A DNA stretch of 64,000 nt, taken from assembly GCF_001570565.1 (NCBI RefSeq), contig NZ_BBXE01000024.1, positions 130,653 through 194,652 on the forward strand, given 5' to 3'. Each line of letters begins with the position of its first letter. Within the stretch, counting starts at the first letter, position 1. The stretch is from Herbidospora yilanensis (GTDB lineage: Bacteria > Actinomycetota > Actinomycetes > Streptosporangiales > Streptosporangiaceae). This document shows positions 29,125-63,460 of the stretch, one piece after another. The notes under the pieces were generated by a model. It was not told the origin of the DNA. It made no database searches and saw nothing but the letters and a program-made list of their open reading frames with translations. Position numbers and translations under genes: made by a program.

Positions 29125-35720
<6,596 letters not shown>

Positions 35721-35724
<4 letters not shown>

Positions 35725-38700
35725 CCCAGGACATCTCCGCCGCCAAGCGGGCCCTGATCCAGCAGCGGCTCCGCCGCCGCACCGCCAAGGCCGTCATCAC
35801 CCCCCGCGAACCGGGTGTGGTGCCGCCGCTGTCGCACGCGCAGGAACGGTTGTGGTTCCTGGAGCAGTACCGGCCCGGCACGACCGCCTACACGGTCCCG
35901 TTCGCGGTCTGGCTGGAGGGCGAGCTCTCCGCCGACGCCCTGCGCGACGCGCTGACCCAGGTCACCGCCCGGCACGAGACGCTGCGCACCCGCTTCACCA
36001 CCACCGACGACGGCCGGCCGGAACTCGTCGTCGTCGACGAACCGGTCGTCGACCTGACCGTGCGCGAGGCCGCCGACGCCGAGGAGGCCCGGCGGCTGAT
36101 CTCGGCCGACCTCGCCCGGCCGTTCGACCTGGCGACCGGGCCGCTGCTACGGGCCACGCTCGTCCGGATCTCGGACGACCAGCACGTGCTCCAGCTCGCC
36201 GCCCACCACGCCGTCACCGACGGCTGGTCGGGCGACGTGCTGCTGGGCGACATCCTGACCCTGCTCGCCGGGAGGGAACCGGCGCCGCTGCCGGTGCAGT
36301 ACGGCGACTACGCCCTCTGGCAGCGGGGCCGGGTCTTCCAGTCGGACATCGACTACTGGCGCGACCGGCTGGCCCACCTGCCGCCGCTCGACCTGCCCGC
36401 CGACCTGCCCCGCCCGCCGGAGCAGAGCGCCAGGGGGGCCGAGCACGGCTTCCAGCTCGACGGGGAACTCGTCGCCGCGCTGACCGAGATGGGGAACACG
36501 CGCGGGGCGACGCCGTACATGACCTTCCTGGCCGCGCTGCAGGTCCTCCTCGGCCGCTGGTCGGGACAGGACGACTTCGCCGTCGGCACCCCGGTCAGCG
36601 GGCGCGGCCAGCCCGAGCTCGACGGGCTGGTCGGCATGTTCGTCAACACCCTCGCCATGCGGGCCGACCTCGACGGCGACCCGGCCTTCACCGACCTGCT
36701 CGACCGCGTGAAGGAGGGCGCGCTCGACGCCTTCTCCCACCAGGAGCTTCCGTTCGACCAGCTCGTCAACGAGCTCAACGTCGAACGCGACGTCAGCCGC
36801 ACGCCGATCTTCCAGGTGCTGTTCGCGTTGCAGAACTACCAGACCGGACCGGCGGGCGCCGACGTCATCAAGGTCACCGGCTTCTCGGCCGAGGTGACCG
36901 CCGCCCGGTTCGACCTGGCGCTCTACCTGTACGAGGGCCCGCAGGGCATGGGCGCCTCGTTCATCTACTGCACCGACCTGTTCCAGCCGTCGACCGTGCG
37001 GAGGCTGGCCGAGTCGTTCCAGACGCTGCTGCGGTCGATCGCGGCCGACCCGTCGGCCCGGATCTCCACGCTCGATCTGCTGCCCGCGCACGAGGCGGCC
37101 ACGACCCTGGCGTTCGGGGAGTCGGCCGGGCCGCAGCCGCTCGACGCCACCCTGCTGCACCACACGGTGCGGGTGTCCGACGCCCCGGCCGTGGTGTTCG
37201 GCGACGACACCCTCACCTACCGGGAGCTCGACCGGCGGGCCAACCACCTGGCCCGGCGGCTCGTCGGGCACGGTGTGCGGCCCGGCGAGCGGGTCGCGGT
37301 CTGCCTGGAGCAGTCGGTCGACATCGCCGTGGCGATCCTGGGCGTGCTGAAGTCGGGGGCCGCCTACGTGCCGGTCGACCCCGAGCTGCCGGCGGCGCGC
37401 ATGGCGTACATGATCGAGGACGCCGGGATCGCCCTCGCGGTGACCACCCCCGAGCTGCGGCCCGGCGGGGTCACCGGGGTCCTCCTCGACGGCGGGGTGG
37501 CCGACACCCCTCCCGAGGTCGACGTCGCGCCCGATGACCTGGCCTACGTCATCTACACGTCCGGGACGACCGGGCGGCCGAAGGGCGTCGCGGTGCAGCA
37601 CCGGGAGGTGCTGGTCTATCTGGCCGGGGTGCACGAGCGGTTCGCGGTCGAGCCCGGCTCGGAGTTCGCGCTGCTCCAGTCGCTCGCCTTCGACTTCGGC
37701 ATCACCGTCTTCTACCTGTCGCTGATGACGGGCGGCTGCCTGCACCTGCTGCCGCCGAAGACGGCCGCGCCCGATCTCGCGGCGTACTTCCGGCTCTACC
37801 CGCCCGACTACCTCAAGATCACGCCCTCGCATCTGGCCGCGCTGCTGGCCGAGGCCGACCCGGCCGAGCTGCTGCCCCGCAGGCTCCTGGTCCTCGGCGG
37901 CGAGGCGGCCCCGGCCGAATGGGCCGCCGAGCTGGCGAAAAGGGTCCGGGTCGTCAACCACTACGGGCCCACCGAGGCCACCGTCGGCGTCACCACCCAC
38001 GAGGTCGGCGCCGAGAAGGGCCTGCTGCCCATCGGCCGCCCGCTTCCGGGCGCGACGGTGCGGTTGCTCGACGCCAACGGCCGTCCGGTCCCGATCGGCA
38101 TGCCCGGGGAGATCCACCTCGGCGGCGCACGCCTGGCGCGCGGCTACCTCGGGCGCCCGGCGCTGACCGCCGAGAAGTTCGTCCCCGACCCGTACGGCCC
38201 CCCGGGAGCCCGCCTCTACCGGACCGGCGACCTCGGCCGCTGGCTGGAGTCGGGCGAGCTCCAGTTCCTGGGCCGCCGCGACCTCCAGGTCAAGGTGCGC
38301 GGCTACCGGGTGGAGCTCGGCGAGATCGAGACGCTCCTGGGCGCCTACGACGGCGTCGCCCAGGCCGTGGTCGAACTCCGCGACCAGCGCCTGGTGGCCT
38401 ACCTGGCCGGCGTCGGCGACACCGCCGCGCTGCGCGCCTGGCTGAAGGACCGCCTGCCCGACTACATGGTCCCGGCCCGGTACGTCTGGCTCGACCGCCT
38501 CCCGCTGAAGTCGCACGGCAAGGTCGACCGGGCGGCGCTGCCCGACCCGGCGGCGGTGGCCGAGCCGACGGCCGCGTTCACCGACCCGGAGACCGAGCTG
38601 GAGGAGCTCGTCGCCGGGATCTGGGCCGCCGTGCTGGGCCTGGAGCGGGTCAGCGTGACCGACGACTTCTTCGACCTCGGCGGCCACTCGCTGCTGGCCA

Positions 38701-41051
38701 TGCAGGTCGTCGCCCGGCTGCGCAAGGCCGGGCACGTCGCCACCCTGCTCGACCTGTTCAAGCACCCGACCGTCCGCGACCTGGCGCACCTCCTCGACCC
38801 GTCGACCGAGAAGGCGCCGGGCGGCCTGCTGCACCGGCTGACCCCGTCGCGGCCCGCCCGCGCCACGGTCGTCTGCGCCCCCTACGGCGGCGGCAGCGCC
38901 GTCATCTACAAGCCGCTGGCCGACGCCCTGCCCGACGACTGGGCCCTGTTCTCCCTGGCCGTGCCGGGCAACGAACTCGGCGAAGAGCCGCGCCCCATGA
39001 ACGAGGTCGCCAAGGAGTACGCCGACGAGATCCTCGCCAAGGTCAAGGGCCCGATCGTCCTGTACGGCCACTGCGGGCTCGGCGGCATGATCAGCATCGA
39101 GGCCGCCCGCCACCTGGAAGCGGCCGGGCGCGCCCCCGAGGCCGTCTACCTGGGCGGCGCCTTCCCGTTCGCCCGCCCGAAGGGCCCGTTCTCCCGGATC
39201 GGCGTCTGGCTGGAGGAGCTGGGCGGCGACCAGGGCCGCATCAACGCCCTCAGCGCCGCCGGCCTGGACGTCGCCGAGTTCGACCAGGAGGAGCTCAAGC
39301 TCATCGTGGCCAACCGCAGGACCGGCACCCGGGAGGCCGAGGAGTACTTCACCGAGGTCTTCGAGAAGGAGCTGCCGCCGCTGTCGGCCCCGGTCATCGC
39401 GGTGGTGGGGGAGCGCGACCCCGCGATGGAGTACTACCAGGAGCGGTTCCGCGAATGGCACTGCGTGGCCGACACCACCGCCTGCGTCGTGCTCGACGAG
39501 GCCGCCCACTACTTCGTGAAGTACCGCAACGAAGAGCTGGCCACGATCGTCACCCACACCCACCGGGCCATCGCCGAGGGCACCACCGGGACGCTGGAGA
39601 GGACGACCGGCGCGGAGACCTGGTGGCTGGAGGGCCTGTCGGTCGTCGGCGCGCCCGAGGGCGACCGGCCTCGGCCTGAGGTCCACGTGGGGCCGAAGCC
39701 GGGCATGAAGCGCTTCGCCGCGCTGGCCGCCGGGCAGCTCGTGTCCATCACCGGGACGGCGCTCACCGAGTTCGCGCTGCCGTTGTGGATCTACATGACC
39801 ACCGGCTCGCTGGTGAACTTCGCGCTGTTCTCCGTGCTGGCGCTGGTGCCGGGAATGCTCGCCGCGCCGCTGGCCGGAACCGTCGTCGACCGGTTCGACC
39901 GGCGCAAGGTCATCCTCGCCAGCGACATCGCCGCGGGCGGCACCCAGCTCGCCCTCGGCGTGCTCGTGTGGACCGGGAACCTGCTGGTCTGGCACGTCTA
40001 CCCGCTGCTGGTGGTGCTCTCGCTGGCGCTCACCTTCCAGCGGGTCGCCTGGGCCGCGGCGGTGCCGCAGATCGTGCCGAAACGGTTCCTCGGGCACGCC
40101 AACGGGCTCATGGGCATGGTCGGCGGCCTGGCCAACCTGGTGCCGCCGCTGGCGGCGGCCGGGCTCATGTCGGTCGTCGGGCTCGGCGGCATCCTGGTCA
40201 TCGACGTCGTCAGCTACACCGTGGCGATCATCACGGTGCTGGTCGTGAGGTTCCCCAAGACGATGGGCTGGCGGCGTCGGGAACCGCTGCTCACCGAACT
40301 GGTCAACGGGCTGAAGTTCACGTGGGGCAACCGCGGCATCCGGAGCATGCTGCTGTTCTTCGCCGTGGTGAACCTGTTCATGTCGCCGCTGTTCCTGCTC
40401 GTCTCGCCGCTCGTGCTCAGCTTCGGCGACCTCCAGGACGTCGGCCGGGTCACCTTCGCCGGCGGCCTCGGCGTGTTCGTCGGCGGCCTGCTCATGACCA
40501 TCTGGGGCGGCCCGAGGCGTCGCCGCCTGCGGGGTCAGCTCTGGTCGACGGTGGCGCTGTCGGCGGGCGCGGTCGTGGTCGGGGCGCAGGAGAACCTGGT
40601 CGTGATCGCCGCCGGGGTGTTCGGCATGTTCTTCTCGCTGACCGTCCTGAACGGCATCTACAACACGATCATCCAGGTCAAGGTCCCGCAGCGGTTCCAC
40701 GGCCGGGTCTTCGCGCTGAACCAGCTCGTCGCCTTCTCCACCCTGCCGATCGGCTACGGCCTGGTCGCCCCCTACGGCACCGCCCTCTTCGAGCCGCTCA
40801 TGGTCGAGGGCGGCCTGCTGGCCGGATCGGCCGGGCTCGTCATCGGCACCGGGGAGGGGCGCGGGATCGCGCTCATGTACGTGCTGTTCGCGCTCGTCAT
40901 GGCGACGGCCGTCCTGGTGGCCCGGTTCATCAGAGGGCTCTGGTACTTCGACGACCGGGTCCCCGACGCGCTCCCCGACGACCTCATCGGCCAGGAGATG
41001 CTGAAGGGGGCCGGACGGACCGGCCCCCTCGCGGCCAGCGGTCAGCAGTAG
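35721..41051 (+). CDS. NRPS C-A-T-TE fused to a C-terminal MFS transporter
   Basis: A 1776-residue protein. C domain 36-470 (HHAVTDGWS near 163); A domain 490-935 (YTSGTTG near 611, FDFGITVF near 657, YGPTEA near 748); T Ser near 990; thioesterase about 1040-1290; MFS transporter about 1325-1760. By eye the A pocket reads DFTKVGHVGK, nearest to Asp codes (Asn-like acids possible). The TE nucleophile motif is YGHCGLGG, with Cys (residue 1118) in place of Ser, plus a later GERDP Asp and EAAHYF His. The transporter shows FDRRKV in the loop after helix 2 and about 10-12 helices. No stop or ribosome site separates it from the TE; Met1329 could be an internal start but has no good Shine-Dalgarno. 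It probably finishes, releases and exports the peptide. Confidence 0.92.
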
Positions 41052-57126: not shown

Positions 57127-57995
57127 CCGAATACCGGGCCGGCGGGACCGATCTGATGGAACGCCGCGCGTCGGGCCGCTCGACCGGCCCGATCGTCGAT
57201 CTGCGCGACCGGGGCCTCCGGTCGATCGAGACCACCGAAAAGGGCGGGTTCCGGATCGGCGCGATGGTCACCGTCGACACCCTGGCGACCGACCCCCGCC
57301 TCCGGGCCGCCTACCCCGCCCTCGCGCTGACGGCCGGCGCGCTGGCGACGCCGCAGATCAGGCGGGCCGCCACGCTCGGCGGGGTGCTGCTCCAGCGCAC
57401 CCGCTGCCGCTACTACCGCAACGAGCACTACGAGTGCCTGAAGACCGGCGGCGAGGGTTGCCCGGCGCGCGGCAACCCCGGCGAGCGCGCCGTCGTGCTC
57501 GACCTCGGCCCGTGCGTCGCGCCGCACCCGTCGTCGGTGGCGATGGCGCTGCTCACCTACGACGCCGTCGCCGAGATCGAAGAGCGGCCCGCGAGACCCG
57601 TGGCCGGCCTCTACGGCGACGGCGCCCGCGACCACCTGCTCGACGCGTCCGACCTGCTCACCGCGGTCACCCTGCCGCCGCCGGTCGACGGCGAACGCGC
57701 CGGGTACGGGCGTGCGACCGGCCGCGCCTCGGCCGAGTGGCCGCTGGCCGAGGCGGTCGCCCACCTGACGGTGCGCGACGGCGTGATCGTCCGGGCCGGG
57801 GTGGCCGTCGGGGGAGTGGCGGCGGTGCCGCTCCGGCTGCCCGGCGTCGAGGCGGCGCTCACGGGCGGCGCGCCGTCGGAGGGGCTGTTCGCACGGGCGG
57901 CCCGCCTCGACTGGTCCCCGGCGTTCCCCGAGACGGCCTACAAGATCCCGATGACGGCGACGCTGATCGGCGACGTGCTGGCTCAGGCCCTGTAG
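57123..57995 (+). CDS. FAD-binding subunit of molybdenum hydroxylase (PaoB/CoxM-like)
   Basis: A 290-residue FAD subunit: RAGGTDLMERRA and ATPQIRRAATLGGVLLQRTR bind FAD. A Cys-rich loop CRYYRNEHYECLKTGGEGC follows, as in PaoB and 4-hydroxybenzoyl-CoA reductase, where it holds an extra [4Fe-4S] cluster. It passes electrons from the Mo centre to an acceptor. It starts within the stop of the fused Mo subunit (ATGA), and the 3' end overlaps the converging helicase operon by 13 bp. Confidence 0.9.
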   Translation: MTEYRAGGTDLMERRASGRSTGPIVDLRDRGLRSIETTEKGGFRIGAMVTVDTLATDPRLRAAYPALALTAGALATPQIRRAATLGGVLLQRTRCRYYRNEHYECLKTGGEGCPARGNPGERAVVLDLGPCVAPHPSSVAMALLTYDAVAEIEERPARPVAGLYGDGARDHLLDASDLLTAVTLPPPVDGERAGYGRATGRASAEWPLAEAVAHLTVRDGVIVRAGVAVGGVAAVPLRLPGVEAALTGGAPSEGLFARAARLDWSPAFPETAYKIPMTATLIGDVLAQAL

Positions 57996-59275
57996 TTCTC
58001 CAGGTGGGCCAGGACCGCGTGGTTCGCGGCCCACCCGTCGGGGAACTTGATCGGCACGTTGAGCTGCACCCTCGGGCTCATCGGGTGGTGGTCGAGCAGG
58101 TCGGCGATGCCCGCGCGGGCCACCACGACGCAGGCGTGCCGGTGCCGCGAGGTCAGCACGCAGAGCCGCCCCGACTCCAGGTGGAAGGCGGTCGCGTCGC
58201 GCCGTCCCGACAGCGGGTGGAGCACGATCGTGACGTCGTATTCGCGGCCCTGGAGCCGGTTGGCCGTGTCGACGGTGACGCCCTCGGGCGGTTCGGCCAG
58301 CTTCACCGCGGCCACCTGGTCGTTGTGGGCGCAGCCGATCGCGATCCGGTCGGGCGTCACCGGGTGGGAGCCGTGCTCGTCGTGGGCGACCGCGCCGCGC
58401 TGGACCAGCCGCCGGGCGATCTCGGCGCAGGCCTGCGCCGCCTCCGGGTCGGTGCGGACGGTGTGCCGGTTCGGCAGCTCGTAGAGGGCCCACCCGGTGG
58501 CGGCGGCCATCTCGACCGTGCGGTCGAACGGCGAGCGCATCCCCGGCACGGTCAGCTCCAGCCGCCGGGCGCCCTCCTCGGTGCCGGCGGTGAAGCCGCC
58601 CGCCGGGTAGAACGCCTCGGACACCATCGGCGCGGCGCTGGCGGGCAGCCGCCACGACACCGGCAGCCGGTGGGTGCGCAATCCGTTGAGCCGCTGGGTC
58701 ACCGCGACGGCGCTCTGCAGCGGGTCCCACTTCAGGCCGGTCCACCGCTCGCTGTCGACCACGCTGAACGGGTCGAGCTGGCCCGGGTCGCCCACGAACA
58801 ACGCGTGGCCGTCGGCGAACAACCGGGCCACCCCGAGGAGCTTGTCGGAGCGCATCTGGTAGGCCTCGTCGACGATCGCCCACTTCCAGCTCCGGTCGGC
58901 CACGTAGGCCCACTTGTCGGCGGTGGCGGTGACGACCTGGCAGGCGTCGACCTGGGCGATCTTGCTGCCGGTGGTGACGGCGGCGTGGCGGCGGACCCGC
59001 TCGGGCGGGTCGAAGCCCTCGGCGTGCAGCCGCCCGATCGTCAGCTCGGGGGAGCGCCGCGCCAGCCGGTCGACGAGGTCGTCGACCTGCTCGTTGGTCT
59101 GCGCCACGATCATCAGCCGCTCGCCCTTGGCGGCGATGGCGGCCGTGGTCTCGACGACCAGCGTGGTCTTCCCGGCGCCCGGGGGCGAGTCGACGACCAG
59201 GCCCGGCGAGGCCGCGCTGGTGTAGTCGGCCAGGATCGTCTCGGTGGCCGCCCTGGCGGCTTCTGCGGGGGTCAT
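57983..59275 (-). CDS. SF1 helicase (AAA/Upf1-like), last gene of the four-gene operon
   Basis: A 430-residue superfamily 1 helicase, short for the group. Walker A DSPPGAGKTT (residues 29-38), Walker B IVDEAYQM, GDPGQLDP (motif III), LPVSWRLP, VDTANRLQGREYDVTIV (motif V) and LTSRHRHACVVV (motif VI). The compact form without large inserts suits Dna2/Upf1-type or conjugative-helicase-like enzymes. Its start overlaps the stop of the upstream gene by 4 bp. It is coupled with an Fe-S Cas4-like protein, so a DNA end-processing complex is inferred. Confidence 0.88.
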   Translation of the reverse strand: MTPAEAARAATETILADYTSAASPGLVVDSPPGAGKTTLVVETTAAIAAKGERLMIVAQTNEQVDDLVDRLARRSPELTIGRLHAEGFDPPERVRRHAAVTTGSKIAQVDACQVVTATADKWAYVADRSWKWAIVDEAYQMRSDKLLGVARLFADGHALFVGDPGQLDPFSVVDSERWTGLKWDPLQSAVAVTQRLNGLRTHRLPVSWRLPASAAPMVSEAFYPAGGFTAGTEEGARRLELTVPGMRSPFDRTVEMAAATGWALYELPNRHTVRTDPEAAQACAEIARRLVQRGAVAHDEHGSHPVTPDRIAIGCAHNDQVAAVKLAEPPEGVTVDTANRLQGREYDVTIVLHPLSGRRDATAFHLESGRLCVLTSRHRHACVVVARAGIADLLDHHPMSPRVQLNVPIKFPDGWAANHAVLAHLENYRA

Positions 59276-60729
59276 GACCAGGGCTCCGCGGCGTCGTCGT
59301 CGGTCGGCACGTAGTCGGGCGGCGGGCCGCCGTGGGTCCACGGCGTCTCCTCGCGCGGCGGCAGCGGCGCGCGGCGCGACTCGCCGGGGTCGAGCTCGGT
59401 GTAGCAGATCACGGTCCCGACCCCGGGCACGCTGCCCTCGGCGGGCTGCGAGCCCCGGCCCATGCCGTCGTCGATCTGCACGGTCACCATGCGGTCGGCC
59501 AACGAGGTGATCGTCGCCGACTGGCGCGGCCGGGAGGGCGAGCGCACCTTCTTGCCCTTCGCCAGGCGTACCGGATCGGAGGTCTCGATCGTCACCAGGG
59601 GACGCGGGACCTCGCGCTTGCCGCCCGGCGGCACGATGCGCCGGGTCAGGTCGACGGCCACGACCTCGCCCGCGAACGCCACGCCGTCGGCCCGGTATTC
59701 GGCCATCACGAGCGGGTCGTCGAAGGCGCGGGTCGCCTCGAACGACTGCTGCGCCGCCTCCAGCCGGGCCAGCCGCTTGGCCGCCGCGACCGCGCTGTCG
59801 CGCTTGCCCTGCGGCAGGCCGCCGCCGTCGATCCAGGCGCGGTGGAGGGCGACGTGGACACGGTCGCGCTCCCAGCGGGTGGTCGCGCCGGGCGACTCCT
59901 TCAGGGCCGCGAGCAGACCGATCGCCTGCCACATGCGGTCCCACGTGGGCCGCAACTGGCCGTGCAGCGCCTCCTCGACCTGCGTGGCCGAACCGGTCAC
60001 GTCGTAGTGCTCGATCGCCTTCTGGAGCTCCTGCCGGTCGAACTCGGGATGGGTGTCGGGACCGGCGGGCGGGGTCAGCGGATCGTCGGCCAGCGCCGCC
60101 GCCTCGGGGCCGGTCAGGCCCTCGGGCGGGTCGATCCAGCCGAGCAGCGCGGCCAGGTCGGCGTCTTCGACGGCGCTCTGGCCGGTCACCCAGTGGGCGG
60201 TCAGCAGGTCGGTCATCGCCACCATCAGCGACGACCCGGCGAACTCGCTCTGCTCGGCCAGGAAGGTCAGCCACCGGCCCAGCATCGGCACCGCCGGGTC
60301 GACCGCGTAGGGCCCGGTCGTGCGCCGGAACCGCGACGAACGCCCCAGCTTGGCGGCGAACTCCACCCCGCCGGGGCTCGGCACGACGATCTGCGGCGCG
60401 TCGAGGCACCGCTCGAACGGCGTCTTCGCCTCGACCGTCTCGACCTGCCGGGAGATCCGGTCGATGTAGGGCAGCAGCACCGCCCCGAGGTCGGCGAGGA
60501 ACTGGAACCGCAGGTCGCGGTTGCGCGGCTGCGGCACCACGAGCAGCGTCGGCCGCCGCGGATCGGTGCCGACCATCGCGCCGAGCGGCGCGGCGGCCTC
60601 ACCGGCCAGCCGGAGCGGCACGAACACCATCGGCGCCTCGGCCAGGTGGACGTGGCGCACGGTGGCGCGCGGCAGCGCCCGGCCCCGCTCCCGCGCCTTC
60701 ACCTTCACGTAGGAGTGGAGCAGGCTCAC
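59272..60729 (-). CDS. Unknown protein between helicase and Cas4-like protein
   Basis: A 485-residue soluble protein. I do not recognise a family. The N-terminal half has a Rossmann-like or helical part (VFVPLRLAGEAAAPLGAMVG, RRPTLLVVPQPRNRDLRF). The middle is helical and rich in Ala/Leu. The C-terminal about 100 residues are basic then beta-rich (KKVRSPSRPRQSATITSLAD, RMVTVQIDDGMGRGSQPAEG), possibly an OB-fold nucleic-acid binder like the accessory domains of Upf1-type helicases. ATGA overlaps on both sides show tight translational coupling with the helicase and the Cas4-like gene. Confidence 0.7.
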   Translation of the reverse strand: MSLLHSYVKVKARERGRALPRATVRHVHLAEAPMVFVPLRLAGEAAAPLGAMVGTDPRRPTLLVVPQPRNRDLRFQFLADLGAVLLPYIDRISRQVETVEAKTPFERCLDAPQIVVPSPGGVEFAAKLGRSSRFRRTTGPYAVDPAVPMLGRWLTFLAEQSEFAGSSLMVAMTDLLTAHWVTGQSAVEDADLAALLGWIDPPEGLTGPEAAALADDPLTPPAGPDTHPEFDRQELQKAIEHYDVTGSATQVEEALHGQLRPTWDRMWQAIGLLAALKESPGATTRWERDRVHVALHRAWIDGGGLPQGKRDSAVAAAKRLARLEAAQQSFEATRAFDDPLVMAEYRADGVAFAGEVVAVDLTRRIVPPGGKREVPRPLVTIETSDPVRLAKGKKVRSPSRPRQSATITSLADRMVTVQIDDGMGRGSQPAEGSVPGVGTVICYTELDPGESRRAPLPPREETPWTHGGPPPDYVPTDDDAAEPWS

Positions 60730-61799
60730 GCGACCGCCTCGTCGTAGAGGCGCGCGACGTGGCGGAGCCGCTCGGCGATCTCGGCCTGGTCGTCGGCCAC
60801 CGGCTCGCCCGGCGTCGCGACCCGCAGCGCGGCCCGCACCGACTCGATGCCGCCCAGGTCGTCGCGGACGACGCGGCCCAGCGCGTCGAGGTGGCCCAGG
60901 TCGTGGGCCTCACGGCGGCACAGGTGGGACAACTCGCAGGCCGACAGGCACTGCGGGGCGTAGCGCGCCGGGACGGCGGCCACGGCGGCCTCGATCTGGG
61001 CCGGCGACAACGCGTCGAGGTCGAGGCTGAGGTTCTCGGGCAGCCGGTCGAGGATCGTGTCGATCCGGGTCAGCCGGGAGAGCTGGCGGGCGAGTGTGAC
61101 GAGCTGGTGGCGGACGTCGACCGTGGTCGCCGTCGGCTCGTTGGTGAAGTCGCGCGGGCAGACCAGGATCACGTCGTGGGAGACCAGGTCGCGGCCGACG
61201 AGCTCGCGCAGGGCGTGGACGTAGACCGCCGCCTCGCGCGCCGCCGCCGACACCTTCGGGGTGTCGGCCTGGTCGTCGACGATCGCGAACGACTTGATCG
61301 CCACGATGTGGAACACGCCGCCGAGCTGGAAGGCGATGACGTCGGGCTCCAGGTAGACCTGCGCGCCCGCGACGTCGAGCCGCAGCAGCGGCCGGTCGAG
61401 GATCGTCGCCCGGCCGCGGCCCTCGGCAGTCTGTCGGATGACGCGGCGGGTGTGCCCGTGGCGCGCCACCTGGCCCTCGTTCCCTCCGGCGTCTTCGAGG
61501 TTGACGTAACCGGCCTCCTCGATCGGCAGGTCGAGCAGGGTGCGCAGCAGCCGCAGCAGGTGGGCCGCGCCGTTGGCCTTCACCAGGTCGGTGAACTGCT
61601 GGTTGCGCTGGATCGCGAACGGCGACTGGCCCCACCGGTCGTCGAACCGCAGCCGCCGCATCAGCCGGGGCTTGTCGATCGCCGCCGCGTCGAGGACCGC
61701 CCGCCGGTCGCACGCCGGGTTCGCCGCCAGGGCCGCGATGCTGCGCGCGTTGTGGTCCTGCCCCGGGGTGCCGCCCCGGATGGCGTCGAGCCGGTTCAT
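60726..61799 (-). CDS. Cas4/RecB-like Fe-S protein with degenerate nuclease motif
   Basis: A 357-residue protein. An N-terminal Cys (ANPACDRRAVLDAAAIDK, Cys30) and a C-terminal CLSACELSHLC triplet (near 281-291) give the four-Cys layout of [4Fe-4S] clusters in Cas4 and AddB-type nucleases. The central beta region reads LEPDVIAFQLGGVFHIVAIK, resembling the D...(D/E)xK nuclease core, but the acid two before Lys is Ala. A QxxxY-like EAAVYVHAL helix follows. It may be a DNA-binding or inactivated nuclease. ATG at 61799 overlaps the previous stop, and the 3' end overlaps the next start. Confidence 0.65.
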   Translation of the reverse strand: MNRLDAIRGGTPGQDHNARSIAALAANPACDRRAVLDAAAIDKPRLMRRLRFDDRWGQSPFAIQRNQQFTDLVKANGAAHLLRLLRTLLDLPIEEAGYVNLEDAGGNEGQVARHGHTRRVIRQTAEGRGRATILDRPLLRLDVAGAQVYLEPDVIAFQLGGVFHIVAIKSFAIVDDQADTPKVSAAAREAAVYVHALRELVGRDLVSHDVILVCPRDFTNEPTATTVDVRHQLVTLARQLSRLTRIDTILDRLPENLSLDLDALSPAQIEAAVAAVPARYAPQCLSACELSHLCRREAHDLGHLDALGRVVRDDLGGIESVRAALRVATPGEPVADDQAEIAERLRHVARLYDEAVA

Positions 61800-62545
61800 G
61801 CGGACCTCACCGTCCTGATTCCCGAACCGAAGAGCCGCTCGACCGGTCCGAGCCGGTCGGTCGCCCGCGCGGCCGCCTCCCGCCTGTCCATCTGATCCCT
61901 CTCCTGGTGTACGGCCAGCTCCGCCCCCGCCGCGGCGATCACCTTGGCCGGATCGGCCGGTCCGAAGCCGTCGCCGGCCCCCGGGATGTTCTGCGCGAGC
62001 TGCCCCAGCAGCCGGAACGCGCCCGGTGAGACGTCGTCGAGCCGCATCAGGTGTTCGGCGAGCCGGACGGCCGAGGTCAGGAAGTCGGTGCGCGGGCTCA
62101 GCGGCCCGATGATCCGCTGGGGCAGCGCCCACGTGCTGAGCGCCAGTAAACCTCGGGCCGGGGACAGCAGTTCGGAGGTCAGCGCCGCGCACAGGTAGTA
62201 GGGCCGGGCGCCGGGCGCCGACCGGTAGGACTTCTCCTCGTCCCGCCGGAGGCTGGTGAGCTGGGTGTTGGCCATCTGGCCGCCGAAGAACGACTCGTCG
62301 ACCGCGACGATCATCCTCGCGGCGGTGGGGGCGCCGAGCAGGGTCAGCGCCCGGTGGACCTGTTCGCGTACCGGAACCAGGGGGGGCTGGGTGGCGGGCT
62401 GCTCGACCTCGGCGTCCCACTGACGCTCGGCCTCCCGCAGCCGGGCCCGCAGCGCCCGCGCCTCGGCGTGCCGCCCGGCCGCCGTCGCCTGCCGGATGGC
62501 TTTCCTCAGCTTCCCCATCTGTGCTTCCAGCCCGTCCAGATCCAC
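61796..62545 (-). CDS. Coiled-coil protein, first gene of the four-gene operon
   Basis: A 249-residue soluble protein. Residues about 5-50 form a charged helical/coiled-coil segment (LEAQMGKLRKAIRQATAAG, then ARALRARLREAERQW). The rest has FFGGQMANTQLTSLRRDEEK and RPYYLCAALTSELLSPARGL, which I cannot assign. GTG at 62545 is chosen with AAGGTGCGGAAAC upstream; an in-frame ATG at 62572 is possible. It is coupled to the Cas4-like gene by a 4-bp overlap, and its promoter region carries three phased TTCCAG repeats. Confidence 0.65.
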   Translation of the reverse strand: MDLDGLEAQMGKLRKAIRQATAAGRHAEARALRARLREAERQWDAEVEQPATQPPLVPVREQVHRALTLLGAPTAARMIVAVDESFFGGQMANTQLTSLRRDEEKSYRSAPGARPYYLCAALTSELLSPARGLLALSTWALPQRIIGPLSPRTDFLTSAVRLAEHLMRLDDVSPGAFRLLGQLAQNIPGAGDGFGPADPAKVIAAAGAELAVHQERDQMDRREAAARATDRLGPVERLFGSGIRTVRSA

Positions 62546-62586
62546 GTTTCCGCACCTTAACAGCGGGCCCACGGAAAGCCAAGCTA

Positions 62587-62626
62587 TTCCAGTTGCTTCC
62601 AGTAATTTCCAGCATTACATTTCCAC
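62587..62626. repeat. TTCCAG direct repeats phased at 10 bp
   Basis: TTCCAG occurs at 62587, 62597 and 62607, exactly 10 bp apart (one helical turn), with TTCCAC at 62621. On the minus strand these are CTGGAA repeats 42-81 bp upstream of the operon's first gene, and they also lie 34 bp before the divergent gene at 62660. This is the form of an iteron or of a regulator that binds head-to-tail. Confidence 0.75.
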
Positions 62627-62659: not shown

Positions 62660-63460
62660 ATGAGCCGCTGCCGCCCCCCGTTATCCCGGGCCGAACTCGA
62701 CGCCCGGCTCGACGAGCGGATCGACACCCGCCCCGACGGAGACGCCGTGACGTGGTCGGTGGTCGTGCCGCCCGCCTGCCGCGCCGCCCACGCGCGGGCC
62801 GACCGCTTCCGCGTCAAGGTCGGCAGCGTGTCGGGCTACCGCCCCTCGGTCGACCCGGCCTACGTGCTGCAGCGTGCCCTCCTCCAGCCCGCCGGCGGGC
62901 GGGTGGCCGCGCTCCGGTCCGGGATCATCCGCATGTACGCTGGCCGGCAGGACATCGGCGGCGCCCGCGTGCCGGCCTGGCTGCAGGCGGTCATGGACGA
63001 TCGCTGGGCCCTGGTCGACGGGGAGTGGCGCGCACTCGACCCCGGCCGGCTGGCCGACGCCCTGGCCCGCGTCCGCCCGCTCTTCGTTCCCGGCTGGGAC
63101 CTGCCCGCCTGGCACCCGGGGGAGTCGCCCCGCGTCTACGCGGCCAACGCCGGCAACCTCCGCCCCGACCTGCTCGCCCTGCCCGGCGGCGACCTCGGCG
63201 ACCTCCTGACCGCGCGGGGCGACCTGGTGTACGTGACCACGGCCGCCGGTCTCGGCCCGGTCGTGACCTCTGCGGTGAGGGCCGCCCGCGGCCGGTTCCC
63301 GGGCGGGGCGCGCCCCGCCCGGGTGGTCTTCGTCGTCCTGTCGGTCACCCCGGTGCCGCCGGAGCGGCTGTTCCCGCTGGTCCGGATGTCGCTCGCGGAC
63401 GCCGCCCGGACGCTCGGCGATCTCGGGGTGGGCGTCGAGGTCGTCGTACACCGCCCATAA
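62660..63460 (+). CDS. Unknown protein divergent from the four-gene operon
   Basis: A 266-residue soluble protein rich in Ala, Arg and Val. I do not recognise it. Segments such as RVPAWLQAVMDDRWALVDGE, FVPGWDLPAWHPGESPRVYA and ARVVFVVLSVTPVPPERLF suggest an alpha/beta fold. No signal peptide. It shares the TTCCAG-bearing intergenic region with the helicase operon, so it may be co-regulated and part of the same system. A GAGA-type ribosome site precedes the ATG. Confidence 0.6.
   Translation: MSRCRPPLSRAELDARLDERIDTRPDGDAVTWSVVVPPACRAAHARADRFRVKVGSVSGYRPSVDPAYVLQRALLQPAGGRVAALRSGIIRMYAGRQDIGGARVPAWLQAVMDDRWALVDGEWRALDPGRLADALARVRPLFVPGWDLPAWHPGESPRVYAANAGNLRPDLLALPGGDLGDLLTARGDLVYVTTAAGLGPVVTSAVRAARGRFPGGARPARVVFVVLSVTPVPPERLFPLVRMSLADAARTLGDLGVGVEVVVHRP

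Follow-up and report, generated by a model that had tools for sequence, protein, structure and literature searches.

In a 64,000-nucleotide stretch of the genome of the actinomycete Herbidospora yilanensis (the whole stretch analysed, hereafter the window), four consecutive minus-strand genes, here named A, B, C and D, appear to encode the dissected parts of a helicase-nuclease similar to DNA2, which in human cells trims broken DNA. On predicted structures, B-C-D is collinear with DNA2 and reads as a split counterpart of Bad, a fused bacterial enzyme: B would supply the iron-staple nuclease module, C the stalk and beta-barrel with an extra domain, and D the motor, a helicase of superfamily 1B (SF1B). 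As a joint best explanation that also covers assembly, regulation and role, this reading is given a probability of about 0.7. The split arrangement is new as far as the comparison with literature and databases reaches, and the four-gene set is common in antibiotic-producing actinomycetes.

Nuclease, barrel and motor

The predicted fold of B, together with profile comparison, identifies an iron-staple nuclease domain of the Cas4/AddB/DNA2 type, whose top structural match is Cas4 and which also matches nuclease domains of the RecB family; the four cysteines of the iron-staple RecB-family fold are present by alignment. The N-terminal alpha/beta domain of C resembles polymerase exonuclease regions, and its C-terminal end (residues 310-450) has the predicted fold of the stalk and barrel of UPF1/IGHMBP2/DNA2-type helicases, resembling IGHMBP2 residues 5-142 and DNA2 residues 442-570, so that in the order B-C-D a stalk and beta-barrel stand between nuclease and helicase. 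D is a UPF1/DNA2-type SF1B helicase core with intact motifs and without a stalk or barrel region of its own. It matches the Pfam models AAA_11, AAA_12, AAA_19 and AAA_30 above their cut-offs, its best matches are of UPF1/DNA2 types, with UvrD-helicase at E 0.013, and it does not show the UvrD/PcrA-type (SF1A) motor of AddAB, AdnAB and RecBCD.

An initial sequence-only reading had recognized a Cas4/RecB-like iron-sulfur (Fe-S) protein paired with an SF1 helicase, and predicted fold, alignment and profiles uphold both identifications as well as the pairing. The oligonucleotide-binding (OB) tail that it ascribed to C survives as a C-terminal beta-barrel, the best match of which is of the UPF1/DNA2 type. 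Its interpretation is supported in part, the DNA2/Bad character of B-C-D and a missing catalytic acid in B having escaped it. It also left the set without a name, which agrees with the PADLOC and literature searches, in which neither a system match nor a published name turned up. Searches of Pfam, PADLOC, NCBIfam and PHROGs assigned none of A, B and C to a family at significance; B had no Pfam match up to E 1, and with the PADLOC 2.0.0 models A, B and C were unmatched up to E 1, and D partially matched helicase models belonging to several systems.

As a separate observation, a D-like SF1 helicase is found repeatedly on plasmids of actinobacteria (56 records), in another conserved module where it is preceded by genes for a MoxR-type ATPase, a VWA-like and a small protein, and a 390-amino-acid protein of no assigned function; examples are plasmids of Mycobacterium avium, Rhodococcus opacus and Xylanimonas (L089, L090 and L091).

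Organization of the operon

The open reading frames of the window place the four genes consecutively, each junction being a 4-base overlap (Table 1). The expectation that all three would be ATGA holds for A/B and C/D, B/C being GTGA. Across loci, and counting only junctions at which a simple gene caller called both neighbouring genes, the 4-base overlap recurs in 47 of 88 A/B, 53 of 121 B/C and 69 of 114 C/D junctions, and the gene order is found again in many genera. Because both overlap and order recur across loci and genera, the overlaps exceed chance. They suggest translational coupling only; the notion that the proteins are made in a fixed ratio goes beyond what they show.

Table 1. Features of the four-gene operon and its upstream region (window positions)
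Feature	Position	Strand	Remarks
Gene A	61796..62545	-	GTG start, 249 amino acids; N-terminal coiled-coil-like stretch, then conserved domain of no assigned fold
Gene B	60726..61799	-	ATG start, 357 amino acids; iron-staple (Cas4/AddB/DNA2-type) PD-(D/E)XK nuclease fold, predicted
Gene C	59272..60729	-	GTG start, 485 amino acids; N-terminal alpha/beta domain and C-terminal stalk and barrel, predicted
Gene D	57983..59275	-	ATG start, 430 amino acids; UPF1/DNA2-type SF1B helicase core
A/B overlap ATGA	61796..61799	-	
B/C overlap GTGA	60726..60729	-	
C/D overlap ATGA	59272..59275	-	
Cys30 of B, first Fe-S candidate cysteine	codon 61710..61712	-	alignment
Cys284, Cys288, Cys294 of B (C-x3-C-x5-C)	codons 60918..60950	-	kept in 123/123 aligned rows
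Residue 167 of B, Ala at the motif-III acid place ((D/E)xK)	codon 61299..61301	-	alignment
C residues 310-450, stalk helix and beta-barrel	59380..59802	-	predicted fold
Three CTGGAA direct repeats, 10-base period	62587..62612	-	end 41 bases before A start
Promoter-like TTGGCT-17-TAAGGT	62554..62582	-	by eye; consensus scan reported no promoter here

Within the Herbidospora-type group, pairwise ratios of nonsynonymous to synonymous substitution rates (dN/dS) are 0.11-0.36 for A, 0.08-0.43 for B, 0.10-0.26 for C and 0.05-0.09 for D (three pairs), and all four genes are therefore under purifying selection. The C of the window is 96% identical to that of Herbidospora solisilvae among the matches listed. 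The 3' end of D lies within the last bases of a convergent gene.

On the other side, A is adjoined by a divergent gene (window 62660-63460, 266 amino acids, no assigned function; cluster c22); of 40 further loci, 2 have a relative of it beside the module. At L052, where the gene calls comprise a short fragment of C but no D, a c22 gene is also adjacent, and the set may be decaying. Elsewhere in the window (29125-41051), two very large plus-strand open reading frames of 2199 and 1776 amino acids look, by eye, like nonribosomal peptide synthetases.

Distribution among actinomycetes

Among Streptosporangiaceae, the family of the window's genome, B was detected in 82 of 150 genomes; it was present in 16 of 396 genomes sampled across the phylum and in 142 of 150 of the genus g70 (one match with E only 4e-4). 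At the level of the class, C was detected in 49 of 296 genomes. These counts include the window's own genome where drawn. Genus g70 is taken as Streptomyces because Streptomyces plasmids carry close relatives, and its copies are referred to as Streptomyces-type. In a named genome collection, a relative of C is encoded at at least 582 of at least 595 pattern matches, of which the best 80 were kept; the genera among the matches listed include Herbidospora, Nonomuraea, Actinomadura, Streptosporangium, Micromonospora, Frankia, Nocardia, Amycolatopsis, Dactylosporangium and others.

Among 41 loci, B was called in 40, C in 40, D in 39 and A in 22, and 84 further loci comprised 65 with A-B-C-D (one with an extra upstream D-like call), 12 with B-C-D, 3 with B-C and 4 with other outcomes, including L107, the genes of which were not called. 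Some genomes are present twice among these loci, and A is under-called, tblastn having located it at L052, L156, L161 and L177, where it was missed, and at L169, where the call was partial. D does not adjoin B-C at the Micromonosporaceae loci L174, L175 and L183 or in genome G353; in G353 and its congener G830, a 66% identical D is retained 36 and 49 kb away. Nine g70 loci carry a B-C-D copy without A among the same neighbours each time, and other g70 loci (L068 and L069) carry A-B-C-D at a different site. C was found in no phage record and in three plasmid records, one of which is a whole chromosome. A divergent family of the set (L078, L081, L082 and L083), with B about 32% identical, has a UvrD-like helicase (L081, by eye; also L078) or McrC (L083) as neighbours.

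A damage-type promoter site in Streptomyces-type copies

At the nine core g70 loci, all of them without A, a site of the TTGTCAGTG type precedes B, with 1-4 mismatches to what we take to be the RecA-NDp consensus. Only sites with at most three mismatches stand out, since L139 and L164 also reach four; in control DNA amounting to 800 kb when both strands are counted, there were none at two mismatches or fewer, one at three and 19 at four. In 19 of 20 further g70 genomes, the site was present at 1-2 mismatches, the twentieth reaching five, and the best shuffled sequence reached four. With a stricter pattern, genome G172 contains five sites and its reversed control none; these sites precede B (by 7 bases), recA, uvrA, a pentapeptide-like gene and an unannotated gene (names by eye), the recA site lying 43 bases before the recognized start and 7 before an upstream GTG. 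The pentapeptide-like and the unannotated gene (L268 and L269) are thus two further genes with a recA/uvrA-type site like that of B. Scored against the same presumed consensus, a site was found in Streptomyces-type copies only, the Herbidospora copy having none at five mismatches or fewer.

In mycobacteria, RecA-NDp promoters are activated by PafBC once DNA has been damaged, and the motif is shared by other actinobacteria (PMC6789036, PMC8223512). The Streptomyces-type operon is probably switched on together with recA and uvrA in a LexA-independent damage response, as judged from its promoter sequence. The possibility that the set is universal house-keeping with a known repair role, raised with the sequence-only reading, has come true in part: the set approaches core status in the Streptomyces-type genus, with a recA-type site there, and no published role was found.

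Neighbouring genes and a possible role in defence

Genes like SbcD/SbcC adjoin the module in 8 of 124 loci, in two arrangements, and their presence changes at least four times on the tree; these loci are g70 L069, two Streptomyces plasmids, three Amycolatopsis loci, one Kibdelosporangium and one Micromonospora. The SbcC match is a called fragment in L156, L161 and L169, and at L094 both SbcD and SbcC are short pieces, two and three genes distant. DUF3427 type IV restriction helicases lie at most three genes away in five loci, with a fragment in a sixth (L143, L163, L111 and L051 are among them), in two Micromonospora loci C and D are separated by a GmrSD-type gene, pPIWI-RE_Z and HmaA-like genes are found at L068, McrC at L083 and Wadjet genes at L092 and L094. 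On L107, a contig from a viral collection, A-B-C-D stand in order, with two integrase genes before them and Vsr and a C5 methyltransferase after them; this contig is judged not to be actinobacterial because it is divergent (C 28% identical over the best segment).

Such surroundings make it a serious possibility, at somewhat below even odds, that the set is primarily a restriction-like defence against phage or plasmid DNA, in which the DNA2-like motor-nuclease would attack DNA as it enters, with A as a recognition or self-marking subunit. Two Streptomyces plasmids carry both SbcD/SbcC-like and Wadjet genes beside relatives, L107 combines all four genes with integrase, Vsr and methyltransferase neighbours, and Bad, too, lies next to a methyltransferase gene (PMC7430649). 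At E 1e-20, the flanks of a mixed set of loci matched 155 PADLOC families in 118 proteins, compared with 47 in 130 control proteins, tallies that count models rather than genes (118 of 125 mixed-set proteins were scanned, 7 of L117 and L079 being left out, and 130 of 138 control proteins, leaving out 7 of L190 and one of L206). This difference is, however, overstated because one protein matches many models; moreover, the mixed set was hand-picked as lying outside Streptosporangiaceae and the g70 core, and one control locus itself contained a DISARM gene. Streptosporangiaceae-type flanks, among them those of the window, show no enrichment (35 families in 140 proteins, 2 of the 140 matching type IV restriction models). 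The near-core presence in the Streptomyces-type genus, the fixed setting at nine loci, the recA-type site and the scarcity of C in phage and plasmid records also argue against a primarily defensive role. The suggestion of a defence-island setting holds for part of the relatives, and in the window no recognizable defence gene stands beside the operon when gene calls are read by eye.

The missing motif-III acid in Herbidospora

In the window, B lacks a complete PD-(D/E)XK catalytic motif, since Ala167 replaces the motif-III acid; E151, D153, K169 and all Fe-S candidate cysteines are retained. The acid is present in 103 of the 122 aligned rows having that column, and alanine occupies the position in nine of nine Herbidospora-type loci checked, representing seven distinct genomes. 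At least five changes of this state are required on the tree, which does not tell their direction. In the Bad protein of Geobacillus, inactivation of the nuclease by D150A in motif III unmasks unwinding (PMC7430649); because the acid of this motif is missing, the Herbidospora complex is expected, by analogy, mainly to unwind rather than cut.

An alternative interpretation, that the Herbidospora set is a nucleic-acid motor without nuclease action, perhaps working on RNA or R-loops like UPF1, Senataxin and IGHMBP2, is considered unlikely. The uniform alanine, the repeated changes of state, the UPF1-like character of D and its strong constraint compared with B (see the dN/dS values above) are in keeping with it, but the retained E151, D153 and K169 may still permit some nuclease activity, and the neighbours of relatives (SbcD/SbcC and restriction genes) concern DNA.

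Gene A and the CTGGAA repeats

Upstream of A lie three CTGGAA repeats (Table 1). In the Herbidospora genome searched (7.85 Mb, 67 contigs), the exact pair CTGGAA-N4-CTGGAA occurs at this site alone, as two overlapping matches; the reversed-pattern control and 400 kb of control DNA gave none. An exact pair was found upstream in 39 of 90 loci with A and in none of 30 without A, and at up to two mismatches in 79 of 90 and none of 30, respectively, shuffled upstream DNA giving 0.9%; these 120 rows, in which near relatives remain, exclude L145, L158 and L182, with fewer than 80 upstream bases. On a tree of 117 of 121 rows (after removal of duplicates by one stretch), 11 independent pairs differ in A, and the repeats differ the same way in a mean of 8.3, the opposite way in none and not at all in 2.7 (median sign test, p 0.008).

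Because A and the repeats co-occur across loci and tree, A is the best candidate for their reader and a candidate DNA-binding and regulatory subunit, as far as sequence comparison indicates. It is improbable that another regulator binds the repeats and that A is a structural subunit lost with them by coincidence: Pfam and profile searches gave A no DNA-binding family at significance, and in some genera the first repeat occupies the -35 element position (by eye), but the absence of repeats from all 30 loci without A, the joint differences on the tree and the uniqueness of the exact pair in 7.85 Mb speak against coincidence.

Proposed function and significance

A Cas4 pair for CRISPR adaptation is scarcely credible, for although Cas4 is the best structural match of B, the Cas4 Pfam model PF01930 has no match in the Herbidospora genome and no gene of the window reads as cas by eye. 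From the genes, their order, motifs, predicted folds, cis-elements and co-occurrence, which are shown here, we infer the assembly, polarity, activity, regulation by A and physiological role of a DNA2-like helicase-nuclease as follows. B, C and D, made together from overlapping genes, would form a single enzyme able to thread itself onto single strands with a 5' end and to unwind and trim ends or flaps of DNA. Streptomyces-type hosts would probably induce it along with recA and uvrA as part of the LexA-independent response to DNA damage; in most other hosts, A would probably be a dedicated DNA-binding subunit reading CTGGAA at its own operon promoter; and in Herbidospora, the complex would mainly unwind, leaving the cutting to other nucleases.

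Most likely, the system processes DNA ends or flaps as part of the response to damage, with recruitment to defence in some lineages. More tentatively, it may possibly be a bacterial counterpart, owned by actinomycetes, of the eukaryotic resection pair of Mre11-Rad50 and DNA2: a DNA2 built from subunits, beside SbcD/SbcC in several lineages, under a recA-type switch in Streptomyces, governed by A elsewhere and, in Herbidospora, unwinding-only like silenced Bad. The presence of B in 142 of 150 Streptomyces-type genomes offers a tractable host for deletion tests of a bacterial DNA2-like role, and because the subunits are separate, the motor, the barrel and the nuclease can each be studied individually. 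The recA-type site and the SbcD/SbcC-like neighbours predict a function in the damage response and in the processing of ends, and the location of some copies amid restriction and defence genes suggests reuse of this machine against foreign DNA.

Comparison with known helicase-nucleases

No published description of the four-gene set was found in the openly licensed literature, where papers using Streptomyces coelicolor locus tags could be missed. AddAB, AdnAB and RecBCD share with it RecB-family nuclease domains, which B matches, acting with helicases at DNA ends; their UvrD-type motors and other subunits are unlike those of the set. Fusions of UvrD and Cas4 in Dcm/Vsr defence loci likewise join a Cas4-like nuclease to a helicase and have Dcm-Vsr neighbours as L107 does (PMC5704561), but UvrD is a 3'-5' SF1 helicase and D is of the UPF1/DNA2 type.

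The actinobacterial TIGR03491 (TM0106) fusions combine a RecB-like nuclease model with a helicase clearly related to D, but are fused, mostly of about 1120-1340 amino acids as called. The family was found in 15 of 60 genomes, with 9 proteins aligned from 12 loci, and had no match in the window genome and three g70 genomes of that search. Against these fusions, D matches the helicase part at E 2.6e-31, B is weak (E 0.045, probability 1.2%) and C has no match to the alignment. They may represent the second Bad class mentioned for Mycobacteria and Rhodococcus (PMC7430649).

Eukaryotic DNA2 has the same order of Fe-S nuclease, barrel with stalk, and helicase core, but it is a single fused protein that carries an OB domain at its N terminus and acts together with RPA (PMC4716839); no counterpart in DNA2 is stated for the N-terminal domain of C. 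The closest comparison is with Bad, a fused DNA2-like helicase-nuclease with an Fe-S cluster and 5'-3' polarity, which its report describes as a rare enzyme whose role is unknown and whose central domain has an unknown structure (PMC7430649). Bad and B-C-D share an iron-staple nuclease, an SF1B helicase and an extra bacterial domain, and the methyltransferase gene adjacent to Bad recalls the C5 methyltransferase beside the set in L107. Membership in Bad is not claimed, because the set is not fused and the motif in the window is incomplete; likeness in build is. Bad is one polypeptide, whereas nuclease, barrel and motor are three genes in the window and in the surveyed gene orders, accompanied by gene A with its CTGGAA repeats, by SbcD/SbcC-like neighbours in some loci and by a damage-type site in Streptomyces-type copies, and the acid of motif III, the motif that D150A alters in Bad, is naturally absent from the B of Herbidospora.

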